Origin: Ruegeria sediminis
GTDB lineage: Bacteria > Pseudomonadota > Alphaproteobacteria > Rhodobacterales > Rhodobacteraceae
NCBI RefSeq assembly: GCF_005938215.1
Contig: NZ_VCPD01000003.1
Location: 1 to 64,000 of the forward strand
DNA: 64,000 bases
Reading direction: 5' to 3'
Position numbers and translations under genes: made by a program
The notes under the pieces: model-generated
Databases searched by the model: none
What the model saw: only the letters and a program-made list of their open reading frames with translations
What the model was told of the DNA's origin: nothing
Shown here: piece by piece, positions 5,512 to 39,363 of the stretch
Layout of the letters: each line of letters begins with the position of its first letter
How positions within the stretch are numbered: position 1 is the stretch's first letter

Positions 5512-5778
5512 TTTGATCCAGCGACCCCAGAACGATACGTGCACGCGATTCAAAGCCTCGTAGCTTCGATGACCGGACCGAAAGAAAAAACCAATACTAA
5601 GGCGCGCGATACGGTGAGAGCACTCGTCTCGGAGATCATCGTTTCTCCCGCAGAAGATGACGGTATTCCAGTCGAAGTCAGAGGACGCATTAGCGCCTTC
5701 GTTTCAAACCCAAGATCTCAGGTGGGGGGTTCGGTGGTAGCGGAGGAGGGACTTGAACCCCCGACACGCGGATTATGA
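5512..5778 (+). pseudogene. C-terminal stub of a large serine recombinase
   Basis: The plus frame reads TPERYVHAIQSL, then ARDTVRALVSEIIVSP and VEVRGRISAFV, the typical end of large serine recombinases of the resolvase superfamily. The catalytic N-terminal and zinc-ribbon regions are missing, since the frame loses similarity at about 5512. The last residues (VVAEEGLEPPTRGL) and the TGA at 5776-5778 are encoded by the tRNA-Met-derived att sequence, which places the former attP inside the recombinase 3' end. It faces head-to-head with another 5'-truncated gene, pointing to one deletion that removed both N-terminal halves. Confidence 0.65.
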
Positions 5779-5780
5779 TT
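5735..5780 (-). repeat. Island attachment site: 46-bp copy of the tRNA-Met 3' half
   Basis: Bases 5735-5780 are identical to 39318-39363. They include the CCA end, the T arm and the anticodon CAT (5775-5777), stopping at the 5' side of the anticodon loop, the usual crossover segment for tRNA-targeting recombinases. There is no 5' half here, so this is not a functional tRNA. It marks the end of the island distal to the tRNA. Confidence 0.9.
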
Positions 5781-5994
5781 ATCCCACAAGTATTTGGACC
5801 GCAGAGAGTGTTACCATTTACGTTGTGGCTACGCGGTTGCATTTGGGCCGCTGCGATGCTGATCTGGATACGCAGGCGAAATGGATGTGTCCTTCCATCC
5901 GTCTGTTCCCTGGTCGCATCGTGTGGACGTGCAAGAACGCTGTTAGACTCAGCTCTTTTGGCGCGAAAAGTTAATTGGGGCCGGGAATCCGAAG

Positions 5995-6019
5995 GTACAA
6001 TCTGCAGTGTGGATTGTAC
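5995..6019. promoter_or_regulatory. Inverted repeat upstream of the secreted beta-propeller operon
   Basis: GTACAATC (5995-6002) and GATTGTAC (6012-6019) form perfect 8-bp arms around 9 nt. The site lies 20 bp before the ATG at 6040 and just upstream of its GAAAGGG ribosome-binding site. It could be an operator or a 5'-leader hairpin. The regulator is unknown; an AraC gene lies just downstream of the operon. Confidence 0.45.
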
Positions 6020-6039
6020 TGAAAGGGTCAATAGATCAA

Positions 6040-36596: not shown

Positions 36597-36607
36597 GTCC
36601 GTCTCCT

Positions 36608-38797
36608 TCAGATTTCTAGGAACCCTAGGTATTCTGGGTCCTCCGGCGAAAACCCGGCCTCGTTATCGTAGAGGCGTACATTGTCCAGAACCACGAATTG
36701 CTCACCGAATTCGTCCTGCCTGACGGCGCTGGCCGCCTTGATCTGAATCAGATCGCCCAGGATCTTTGGCGATACCCCAACCGTGTAGCGCTGCAGCGCG
36801 TGAGCGATAGCGCCGGCATGGGTGCTGTGGCTGAGGAGCCGCTGCGCGTCCTCGTCCATGCCCCAAGGGCCCGAGCCTAGGATCAGCGGCTTGTTGTAGT
36901 CCTCAATCAGAGAGAAATCGGCAGCGATGTCGGCAAAGGGATATTCGAGTTGGTTACCGCTTTCTCCAATCCGTCCCATGATCCTCCGGCTGTCGAGATC
37001 GGCGCTGCTGCTCCAGTAGAGCGCCCTGAAATAGGCGTTGACCGCGTCCGGTGACAATGGGTCGGCGTACTCCGCCATGATTCGGCAGGCAATCTCGGCG
37101 TTTCTTTGCAATTCCCGTGGAGGCGGGTAGCCCTCTTCCGGTTTGAAGACAAAGACCTGCCCTCGTTCCAACTTACCGTTGCGGTTGCAGCGACCCGCCG
37201 CCTGGGTGATGGAGTCGATCCCGGCCACCGCACGCCAGACTTCGGGGAAATCGAGGTCGACCCCGGCTTCGACCAACGCGGTGGCGATCAGCAGCACTGG
37301 GCGTTCTTGCAGGCGCCTGCGCACCTCGCCCAGAACAGTGGCGCGGTGGCTAGCGGTCATGTTGGTGGTCAAGTGGAAGACGCCATCGCCGCGCAAATCG
37401 TCATACAACGCCCGCGCCTGACGCTTGTTGTTGACGATCACCAGCGCCGATCGGCCACGCACGCGCTGTGCTAGCTCGGCATTGGTCAGTCGACCCAATT
37501 TCACGACCTCGACCCGCTTGAGGTGGTCGTAAAGCCGTGACGGATCGGGGGCGATTTCGCGGGTCTCGCCGCGCAGGAGCGCCTCTGGCGCCTTCAGCCC
37601 GTCCTCCTTGTAGATTGCTGGCTGGGTCGCTGTGCATAGGACGGCGGAGCAGCCATAGCCGCGGGTCAGTTCCTTGATCGCCGCGAGGCAAGGGCGCAGG
37701 AACGGGATTGGCAGCGATTGCGCCTCGTCGAGCACAATGACCGAACAGGCGATATTGTGCAGCTTTCTGCATTTGGAGGTGCGGTTGGCAAAGAGACTTT
37801 CGAAGAACTGCACGGCCGTGGTCACCACCACCGGCCGGTCCCAGTTCTGTGCCGCCAGCTTGATCCGCTCGGCCTCGGTTTCGTCCTCCATGTCTTGGAA
37901 GTCGAAGGCCGAGTGATGCTCCAGCACTGCGTCGGCATCGTCCAGAGCCGCGCGGAACACATCCGCCGTCTGCTCGATGATCGAGGTATAGGGCACGACG
38001 TAGATCACCCGACGCAACCCGTGTTGCTGCACGTGGTCCAACGCAAAGCGCAGTGAACTCAGTGTCTTGCCCCCGCCAGTGGGCACGGTCAGAGAAAACA
38101 GCCCGGGCCGCTCGGCGGCGGCGTGCCCCGCGCCTTCCAACACCTCTCCGCGCAGTTGGTTGACGGCACCTTCGGGCGGGCCGAAGCGCGACAGGTGGTT
38201 GCCAAGTGCACCGCGGAGGTCGTTCAGCGAACCCGCCCAGCCGCGAGGGGCGTCGGGCGAGTAGAACCGCTCGGTTTCGACAAAATCAGCGTCGACAAGC
38301 GCGGAAAACAGCATGCGAACGAAGAACTGCACTTCGAAATGCGGAATTGGCTTACCAAAACCTGCCAACGGGGCCGGCAGCTCGAGGGCGGGCAGTTCCA
38401 ACCAATCGGGCAATTCGACCGGCTTTGTCTGGGCCAACCGTTCCGCTAGCGGCGTTGGCGGGTGCCCATTGGATATTTCTAACCCGTTGGCCAGCCCAGC
38501 GTGGTGCCCGGCGATGCAATAGGCCATCAACCGCCCAAGCGGCCCGAATTTGTCATCTGCGTACCGAGCGCCTTCACCGCTGTGCGGAACGCGCTCGGGG
38601 CTGCCGGAGATGCGCGCTTGGACCTCGGGTTTGATCTTTCCGAGATCATGCAAAAGGCCAGCAGCTCTTGCCAGAGACCCAGCGCCGATCACATCTGCAT
38701 TTGCTTCGGCGGCCACACCGACATTGAACAGGTGGTCGGTTAGCAATTCCCATCGCTCTACGGGCTGACCAGGGCGAGAGTGGGCAAACAGTGGCAA
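36608..38797 (-). CDS. cas3: Helicase-nuclease Cas3, type I-C
   Basis: Start at TTG 38797 (M-PLFAHSRPGQP), which matches the usual I-C Cas3 N-terminus; no ATG is near. The HD nuclease is at 1-220 (LLHDLGK with His50-Asp51, CIAGHHAGL). The superfamily 2 helicase has Walker A TVPTGGGKT (238-245), DEAQ box IVLDEAQSL, motif III LCTATQ and motif VI QAAGRCNRNG. All catalytic elements are present, so interference should be functional. It is the first gene of the seven-gene minus-strand cas operon. Confidence 0.97.
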   Translation of the reverse strand: MPLFAHSRPGQPVERWELLTDHLFNVGVAAEANADVIGAGSLARAAGLLHDLGKIKPEVQARISGSPERVPHSGEGARYADDKFGPLGRLMAYCIAGHHAGLANGLEISNGHPPTPLAERLAQTKPVELPDWLELPALELPAPLAGFGKPIPHFEVQFFVRMLFSALVDADFVETERFYSPDAPRGWAGSLNDLRGALGNHLSRFGPPEGAVNQLRGEVLEGAGHAAAERPGLFSLTVPTGGGKTLSSLRFALDHVQQHGLRRVIYVVPYTSIIEQTADVFRAALDDADAVLEHHSAFDFQDMEDETEAERIKLAAQNWDRPVVVTTAVQFFESLFANRTSKCRKLHNIACSVIVLDEAQSLPIPFLRPCLAAIKELTRGYGCSAVLCTATQPAIYKEDGLKAPEALLRGETREIAPDPSRLYDHLKRVEVVKLGRLTNAELAQRVRGRSALVIVNNKRQARALYDDLRGDGVFHLTTNMTASHRATVLGEVRRRLQERPVLLIATALVEAGVDLDFPEVWRAVAGIDSITQAAGRCNRNGKLERGQVFVFKPEEGYPPPRELQRNAEIACRIMAEYADPLSPDAVNAYFRALYWSSSADLDSRRIMGRIGESGNQLEYPFADIAADFSLIEDYNKPLILGSGPWGMDEDAQRLLSHSTHAGAIAHALQRYTVGVSPKILGDLIQIKAASAVRQDEFGEQFVVLDNVRLYDNEAGFSPEDPEYLGFLEI

Positions 38798-39317
38798 CAG
38801 GATATCTCGTGTCAGCTGGCAATTTTGGTGGAATGGAGGATGTCAATGACTGAAGCGAACATGGATACTCACCGCTAAGCTGTCAAGAAAGGAAGGTAAA
38901 TTCCCAATGGTTGATCGTCGCATATGTGGCCTAAAGCGAGTATCCATTTGAGTTTCGGCGCCGCGCTCACCAATGCCTCACCCAGATCATCATGCGTAAC
39001 GCCAGATTCACAAAGCTCTCTTCGGAGCCTTCATCGTCTAGCGCGAAACGGAGCGGTCTACCTGCGCTTCAGTAAATTAGGCAATGACTGTGATTTGCAG
39101 AAAAGGAACGCCCGCGAACAGTCGGAGTCAGACCGTCCGACATGCTCCATCGTGGCCGCGAGTTTGAGTAACTGCTGCGACTAGATTGAGGTAGATTCCA
39201 AACATCGGGACCGCGGGCTATTGGTGCTCCAGTACCGGCTTCATCGGACTGACGTGCAGGGGTCGCCTGACCATCTCATTTCGCTGGGCCAGAATGCGAA
39301 GCTTTGCTTTGGAAATT
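38798..39317. other. 520-bp region between cas3 and tRNA-Met
   Basis: No supported gene. It holds the cas operon promoter region on the minus strand and the island's junction with the tRNA. An 86-codon plus frame at 38924-39184 has poor coding character. I see no recombinase here, although an integrase beside the tRNA would be usual. Confidence 0.4.
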
Positions 39318-39363
39318 TGGTAGCGGAGGAGGGACTTGAACCCCCGACACGCGGATTATGATT
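39318..39363 (-). repeat. Island attachment site within tRNA-Met
   Basis: Identical to 5735-5780 over 46 bp. Because the tRNA stays complete, the element restored the 3' half on integration. Confidence 0.9.

Follow-up and report, generated by a model that had tools for sequence, protein, structure and literature searches.

A type I-C CRISPR-Cas locus between predicted attachment sites of a tRNA-Met island in Ruegeria sediminis

tRNA islands that carry CRISPR-Cas have been described before. In Vibrio, islands at tRNA loci, including tRNA-Met, carry CRISPR-Cas systems that comparison strains lack, one of type I-F within 25 kb and one of type II-B within 30 kb (PMC6360697). The Ruegeria island resembles these in being tRNA targeted and in carrying CRISPR-Cas, but the Vibrio systems at tRNA-Met are of other subtypes and in other hosts, the II-B integrase adjoins the tRNA, and the available text of that report mentions no Rep_trans-like module (PMC6360697). 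Type I-C itself is carried by pKLC102/PAPI-1-type elements of Pseudomonas aeruginosa, and the likeness lies in its being cargo of a horizontally acquired island (PMC5136561, PMC12629846). As described in the available portions of those sources, pKLC102-like elements are conjugative (ICEs) (PMC5136561, PMC12629846), whereas the scanned ORFs of the Ruegeria island include no transfer genes. In the MobT/Rep_trans integrative mobilizable elements of Firmicutes, the initiator may act in transfer as well as in maintenance; these elements share with ours a Rep_trans-type initiator and an integrase, and some lie at tRNA genes (PMC5704250, PMC6499999). The Ruegeria element differs in belonging to Rhodobacterales, in that Pfam Rep_trans gives no more than weak matches, to 10 of 42 aligned proteins, and in that its relaxase role is putative. 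MOBT matches have also been described in marine alphaproteobacterial elements, one of them 11.7 kb long and assigned to Rhodobacteraceae; here the likeness is one of description, and a tRNA site or CRISPR goes unmentioned in the accessible part of that account (PMC11104534).

The window analyzed here is a stretch of 64,000 nucleotides that starts with the first base of a 624-kb contig, and the far-left flank is outside the assembly. The likely insertion that it records is an event of a known kind, and in related bacteria this site is occupied by other insertions. In a marine lineage, it is a clean example of adaptive immunity lying between what are probably the att sites of a tRNA island.

The repeat pair, its tRNA target and the flanks

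694 to 5067, minus strand: older-island remnant outside the element (PADLOC)
1365 to 3551 (N-part) and 694 to 1485 (C-part), minus strand: SspH, middle missing (PADLOC, 2.2e-58 and 5.9e-89)
3469 to 5067, minus strand: SspG (PADLOC, 1.3e-135)
5506 to 5730, plus strand: C-terminal serine recombinase remnant, just outside the island (tblastn, 53% to residues 409 to 483 of 484)
5735 to 5780: distal 46-bp repeat, a predicted att site (identical to the tRNA-side copy; the assembly has no third one)
39318 to 39363: 46-bp direct repeat on the tRNA side, a predicted att site inside the tRNA gene (exact match to 5735 to 5780)
39318 to 39394, minus strand: intact tRNA-Met (CAT), proposed integration target (ARAGORN; Rfam RF00005, 66.6 bits)

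The tRNA-Met gene is the only tRNA that ARAGORN and Rfam found in the window. As originally noted, its 3′-terminal 46 nt (39318 to 39363 in plus-strand coordinates) are duplicated exactly at 5735 to 5780, with 46 of 46 positions identical and the orientation the same. The copies lie 33,583 bp apart from start to start, and the stretch between them extends from the 3′ side of tRNA-Met, which is the side expected of such an island. When the 46-mer was slid over both strands of the window, it fitted with 0 mismatches at these two places and with 20 at the runner-up, and its longest exact piece elsewhere in the window was 12 bp. Throughout the 4.23-Mb assembly, all 46 bases were matched at two places only, the five other matches being stretches of 76 to 81% identity. 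On the sequence, chance is excluded as the origin of the pair. The scan of the window also found no further att copy separating the CRISPR block from the Rep-integrase part. The arrangement is that of a tRNA-targeted island, in that the insert is bounded by directly repeated copies of the tRNA 3′ end and tRNA-Met itself is intact.

The left neighbor of the island, to judge from its sequence, is not native chromosome but the remnant of an older island, with a truncated serine recombinase and Ssp-type defense genes. In five congeners, the end of a homologous serine recombinase lies 2 to 4 bp from an intact tRNA-Met, and the DNA beyond our left repeat aligns in register with the DNA after the intact tRNA-Met at L063, L048, and L060 (67 to 72%), an alignment that points to the state before insertion. 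We infer that a serine-recombinase island settled against the tRNA first and that the present element came in later, between that island and the tRNA.

The empty site expected in relatives does exist: in 2 of 35 congeners (G010 and G031) the locus is uninterrupted, with ZrgA 78 to 92 bp on from tRNA-Met and imelysin after it, and in nine more of the 35 this native ZrgA-imelysin block lies 4 to 21 kb from tRNA-Met. The native neighbors are these two genes instead of the proposed DUF2189 gene, and no DUF2189 was found in the flanking ORFs scanned (four in 694 to 5778 and six in 39509 to 44804). Fragments of the tRNA-Met 3′ end occur in at least 10 of the 53 other genomes of the genus, and the content of the island is sporadic, cas8c and Rep each being present in 2 of 54 genus genomes, its own included. 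Neither of the outcomes that had been named as refuting the island was seen, since uninterrupted loci exist and the I-C locus does not occupy the same site in many relatives. Comparison across the genus supports the view that the 3′ side of tRNA-Met is a variable insertion hotspot.

The integrase, the Rep module and their neighbors

6007 to 10290, plus strand: cargo, four-gene run, the last an OprB-family porin (8959 to 10290; PF04966, 2.4e-19); no Pfam match for the first three
10423 to 11430, plus strand: cargo, AraC-type regulator (PF12833, 8.2e-12)
11744 to 13114, plus strand: cargo, FAD/BBE oxidoreductase (PF01565, PF08031)
13394 to 16918, plus strand: cargo, SAM-domain/nucleotide cyclase/AAA/TPR protein (PycC matches, best 1.8e-15)
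17367 to 18431, minus strand: GIY-YIG protein adjoining the integrase, a UzuA-like candidate defense gene (PADLOC UzuA, 2.4e-73; PF01541, 6e-05)
18453 to 19721, minus strand: tyrosine integrase, 422 aa, open (PF00589, 5.5e-26; PHROG_1, 3.2e-74)
20345 to 21861, minus strand: IS3-family insertion sequence, transposase ORF 20421 to 21626 (75 to 84% to plasmid copies annotated IS3; rve domain)
22355 to 23077, minus strand: UPF0149 protein (PF03695, 3.1e-21)
23294 to 23749, plus strand: XRE-type regulator, divergent to Rep (HTH_31/HTH_26 weak; synteny)
23783 to 25336, minus strand: Rep, predicted rolling-circle initiator/MOBT-like, Rep_trans fold (likely start near 25078, the 431-aa database form)
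26553 to 27521, minus strand: orfG, unknown (homologues 47% at L084, 51% at L202, 48% at L210)

The integrase has R254, H362, R365, H388, and Y398, which we take to be its catalytic residues. Among the 10 nearest named loci with which it was compared, 3 fall in an 80-85% class and 7 in a 51-61% class. A tRNA-Met fragment lies at two of the three closer loci (97.8% at L078 and 100% at L084), and none was found at L079, which shares a contig with L084. The more distant class is associated with tRNA-Phe, there being 48- to 49-bp fragments of this gene at five of the seven loci (L081, L082, L083, L085, and L087) and an intact tRNA-Phe 1.4 kb off at L080, which brings the total to six; no tRNA or fragment was found at L086. 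The Met-class integrases form one branch of the tree (support, 98/96), and among these loci integrase kinship predicts which tRNA is used. This series, with its two tRNAs and similar fragment lengths, offers a comparison for target switching by tyrosine integrases. Integrases only 26 to 30% identical to ours, in G003, G008, and G462, adjoin 45- to 51-bp fragments of the tRNA-Met end.

The integrase lies about 20 kb from tRNA-Met. An internal position is seen as well in L082, a complete 12.5-kb example in which cargo flanks XRE-Rep-Int on both sides. The 24 island ORFs scanned yielded no second recombinase beyond the IS transposase.

Rep is predicted to have a fold like that of Rep_trans initiators, which suggests a mobilizable element, although PF02486 (Rep_trans) itself gave no match for the window protein and a weak one for 10 of the 42 aligned proteins (best E value, 0.006). 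XRE homologues adjoin Rep in several relatives, and those of orfG lie close to Rep or this integrase at other loci. By Pfam, no type IV secretion or coupling genes were found among the 24 longer island ORFs, three of them array ORFs. In 394 family genomes, our own included, Rep is present in 21 and cas8c in 19; just two genomes, G000 and G381, have both, and in the latter they are on different contigs. A Rep_trans-fold initiator at this locus suggests that Firmicutes-type rolling-circle mobilizable elements have relatives in Rhodobacterales. We tentatively raise the possibility that a so far undescribed family of mobilizable elements in Rhodobacterales is built around XRE-Rep-Int, with a Rep_trans-fold initiator outside the usual Firmicutes, tRNA-Met and tRNA-Phe lineages split by integrase divergence, and swappable cargo, here an adaptive immune system and a second candidate defense gene.

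The CRISPR-Cas block and its origin

27879 to 31180: CRISPR array, 50 ungapped repeats and a further one that lacks 1 bp; spacers of 33 to 37 nt
31358 to 31648, minus strand: cas2 (PF09827, 1.9e-25)
31655 to 32767, minus strand: cas1 (PF01867, 3.5e-98)
32665 to 33474, minus strand: cas4 (PF01930, 1.4e-20)
33281 to 34327, minus strand: cas7 (csd2) (PF05107, 1.9e-102; PADLOC Cas7c, 2.1e-111)
34180 to 35943, minus strand: cas8c (csd1), type I-C hallmark (PF09709, 1.2e-174)
35940 to 36596, minus strand: cas5 (PF09704, 7.3e-48)
36608 to 38797, minus strand: cas3 (PADLOC Cas3c, 3.4e-206; 98.75% nucleotide identity to the G024 copy at tRNA-Met)

The full type I-C system predicted between the repeats is present, in the order cas3-cas5-cas8c-cas7-cas4-cas1-cas2 plus array, with all seven frames open. 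No convincing protospacers for the array spacers were found in phage records, 295 family genomes, or the fetched loci. The GC content of the block is 62.5%, versus 57.1% for the rest, Rep-integrase core included, with the step at about 27.9 kb; this brings the block nearer to the right flank, which has 65.6%. The second genus genome with cas8c, G456, has a complete syntenic CRISPR locus (window 28733 to 38799, 72% nucleotide identity) on a 15-kb contig without tRNA-Met.

The sister species G024 carries cas3 at the same tRNA-Met, with 2049 of 2075 bases identical, versus 87.4 to 87.6% over 16.1 kb of adjacent core. Both Rep and cas8c are absent from G024, and no integrase was found within its fetched stretches. 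Per 100 bp, its cas3 is 97 to 100% alike, and over the 300 bp next to the tRNA identity falls from this level to 81% (81 to 85% in the final 200 bp), which is unlike a single recent shared insertion.

The account that we favor, and consider reasonably probable, is that the 33.6-kb I-C-bearing stretch was inserted into the 3′ end of tRNA-Met by the element's own tyrosine integrase, with the CRISPR-Cas block probably of separate origin and added as tRNA-side cargo. Its basis is the repeat pair, the open integrase, the uninterrupted congener sites, and the association of integrase kinship with the tRNA used. Further in its favor are the L082 example, the alignment at the left junction, the sporadic cas8c, and the close cas3 match at the same tRNA in G024. 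The integrase would have recombined the element's 46-bp core with the tRNA and made the gene whole again on one side; the XRE/Rep_trans-like module may act on the excised circle by nicking and replicating it; and, because no transfer apparatus was seen in the ORFs scanned, the element is perhaps mobilized by a helper. The CRISPR block and the integrase core look to be of separate origin because their GC contents differ and because G024 has cas3 without Rep. Of the original prediction that the immune system is mobile cargo, what stands is its place inside the present att boundaries: it shares the element's att pair today and would leave with the element if excision still works. Joint transfer is no more than a possibility, given the same GC difference and the G024 cas3 without Rep. 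The points counted against the favored account were the integrase-tRNA distance, the GC difference, the lack of Rep and cas8c in G024, the drop in identity to G024, the rare co-occurrence of Rep and cas8c, and the lack of a plasmid relative (megablast among 72,556 plasmids found none for the whole-island DNA).

That the 46-bp copy arose by chance or assembly duplication, so that there is no island, is an idea prompted by the contig end at the window's left edge; we give it scarcely any credence, given the exact 46-bp match, the tRNA-Met fragments elsewhere in the genus, the low GC, and the sporadic content. It is also very improbable that a different recombinase at the hotspot made the repeat, with the integrase at 18453 along as a passenger. 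Several integrase families do use the tRNA-Met end, as in G003, G008, and G462, and in five congeners it adjoins the end of a serine recombinase, but of the three integrases most closely related to this one, two lie with the same 46-bp fragment, six of seven cousins have tRNA-Phe, and the island ORFs scanned hold no second recombinase beyond the IS transposase.

A weightier alternative, which we nevertheless think unlikely, is that CRISPR-Cas never moved with the Rep-integrase element and came by another route, e.g., homologous recombination between resident hotspot islands of two species. The GC step, the G024 cas3 without Rep or cas8c, the decay of its identity toward the tRNA, and the syntenic locus of G456 would all accord with such a route. 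Against it, a second att copy is absent between the CRISPR and Rep-integrase parts, L082 has tRNA-side cargo too, and G024 may have lost the remainder, its cas3 breaking off at a contig tip in an apparent IS end. With cas3 nearly identical at this tRNA in two species whose adjacent core differs by about 12%, a recent interspecies transfer of CRISPR-Cas becomes testable.

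The repeat-bounded island

The DNA between the two 46-bp repeats is a real, repeat-bounded, mosaic island, and CRISPR-Cas is its present cargo. The window comprises bases 1-64000 of a 624-kb contig whose end, where the assembled DNA stops, is the window's left end. The features that define the island's edges are as follows:

5506-5730, serine recombinase remnant (about the last fifth), just outside the left repeat
5735-5780, exact copy of the last 46 bases of tRNA-Met, in the same orientation
39318-39394, minus strand, tRNA-Met(CAT), the sole tRNA gene in the window

The exact duplication of the tRNA 3' end, as originally predicted, was borne out: all 46 bases are identical, every other place in the window is at least 20 mismatches away, and the assembly holds no third copy. 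The DNA between the copies is on the 3' side of tRNA-Met.

Reading leftwards from the tRNA, the island begins with a type I-C operon (cas3-cas5-cas8c-cas7-cas4-cas1-cas2, all frames open), followed by an array of 51 repeats, of which 50 are ungapped and 1 carries a deletion. Next come orfG, the gene for 'Rep' (a predicted rolling-circle initiator of Rep_trans fold) and, divergent to it, an XRE regulator; UPF0149, an IS3-family copy and a tyrosine integrase follow. Beyond the integrase, a UzuA-like GIY-YIG protein is followed by a cyclase-AAA-TPR protein and an oxidoreductase, and lastly by an AraC regulator and an OprB porin run. GC content is 57.1% from the left repeat to the array and 62.5% in the CRISPR-Cas block, which is thus set apart from the remaining island; the right flank has 65.6%. 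On the far side of the left repeat GC is 55.9%, and low GC therefore continues past that repeat.

Within the array, the repeat with the deletion sits inside 'spacer 19', and spacers 25 and 38 are the same, forming identical spacer-repeat units at 29522-29617 and 30367-30462. The large protein at 13394-16918 combines SAM-domain, nucleotide cyclase, AAA and TPR parts, with PycC matches across the cyclase part.

CRISPR-Cas as cargo

The original prediction that CRISPR-Cas is mobile cargo of a tRNA-targeted element holds in part: the system now lies within the att pair, but it was probably added separately, a reading drawn from sequence comparison with the sister species, G024. There, cas3 stands at tRNA-Met as in the window, yet the genome has neither Rep nor cas8c. 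Window positions 20300-36722 are matched in G024 only by pieces that look IS-like, and over the final 200 bp up to the tRNA similarity is only 81-85%. G024 cas3 (L169, C12:1-2842) is interrupted at residue 692, and the 96 bp that remain to the contig tip are other sequence resembling an IS end. The two cas3 genes are 98.75% identical over 2075 bases, against 87.4-87.6% over 16.1 kb of adjacent core, and this difference points to recent horizontal exchange of cas3 at the same site.

The hallmark gene cas8c is present in 2 of 54 genomes of the genus and 19 of 394 from the family, our own included in both counts. The other carrier in the genus, G456, has a complete syntenic I-C locus, 72% identical, on a contig without tRNA-Met (L263, C239); no cas gene was found within 17.5 kb past its tRNA-Met. 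In a further genome (G421, L254), tRNA-Asn points its 3' end at an I-C cas3 that begins 330 bp away, and a second copy of that tRNA end is absent from the 20 kb examined.

CRISPR-Cas on tRNA islands is already known. Types I-F and II-B have been described on tRNA-Met islands in Vibrio (PMC6360697), and in P. aeruginosa pKLC102-like and PAPI-1 islands carry type I-C (PMC5136561, PMC12629846). For marine genomic islands, a survey from 2012 reports few cas genes, and tRNAs at 27% or more (PMC3478194). Rep_trans-type initiators are reported from integrative elements of Firmicutes (PMC5704250, PMC6499999), as are MOBT hits from marine elements (PMC11104534). Among titles on Roseobacter, Ruegeria and Rhodobacterales and on I-C conjugative or mobilizable elements, mostly outside subscription journals, we recognised no account of the present element. 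Its integrase-Rep core may deserve its own name.

The tRNA-Met site and its history

The tRNA-Met region was taken from 36 congeners and its downstream stretch from 35 (three under 3 kb; G027 is broken at the tRNA). An alpha/beta hydrolase lies directly upstream in 33 of the 36, and was not seen in the ca. 0.9-2.3 kb upstream stretches of G021, G024 and G030. For the window's hydrolase, the named relatives among the 120 best of 1299 fall mostly in Ruegeria, the probable genus of the host. The 3' side varies among the 35 downstream stretches. An uninterrupted site, as predicted for relatives, was found in G010 and G031, where ZrgA follows tRNA-Met by 78-92 bp and imelysin comes next, in place of the DUF2189 gene expected there. 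In nine further stretches the native ZrgA/imelysin block lies 4-21 kb from the tRNA. Imelysin is present in 22/22 congeners checked, frequently farther from the tRNA or on a separate contig, and has no match in our own genome. At least 10 of the 53 other genomes of the genus carry a second 3' fragment of tRNA-Met, 45-55 bp long (G003, G008, G013, G015, G024, G027, G033, G455, G459 and G462; the one in G027 is at a contig tip). A contig from a different family of the same class (G037 C100) carries tRNA-Met plus two more 3' fragments ca. 15 and 22 kb away, which indicates that the site is used outside the genus too.

Left of the left repeat, positions 694-5067 hold Ssp-type defence genes (SspG whole, SspH without its middle) adjoined by the truncated serine recombinase, and are the decayed remnant of an older island. 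Homologous recombinase ends lie 2-4 bp from an intact tRNA in five congeners (L038, L048, L060, L063 and L069), the L038 recombinase likewise being just a remnant. Aligned in register with the DNA past these intact tRNAs, the DNA past the left repeat is 71% identical over 146 columns from base 1 in L063, 72% over 118 from base 25 in L048 and 67% over 225 from base 6 in L060; at the DNA level, neither L069 nor L074 matches. The recombinase ends and in-register alignments form the picture expected if an older island had lain against tRNA-Met first and the present element had entered later, at the tRNA.

Integrase kinship and target tRNA

A scan of genome contigs kept 80 integrase loci, the nearest 10 of which were examined. 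Three of these belong to the 80-85% class: L078 and L084 each come with a tRNA-Met fragment, and L079, on the same contig as L084, has none within its stretch. The 51-61% class has seven members: five have 48-49-bp tRNA-Phe 3' fragments, an intact tRNA-Phe lies 1.4 kb upstream of L080, and no tRNA or fragment was found for L086. Met-class integrases form a single branch (support 98/96), L079 being labelled Met on account of L084 on its contig. In the complete 12.5-kb element L082, tRNA-Phe is followed by cargo, XRE, Rep and the integrase, then by more cargo and the fragment; cargo on either side of an internal integrase therefore has precedent in this integrase family. On the Lutimaribacter contig shared by L079 and L084 (NZ_FNEB01000002.1), three copies of the integrase, a long one (residues 106-422) and two that are partial, are spread over both sides of a 46-bp tRNA-Met fragment, an arrangement that suggests tandem insertions.
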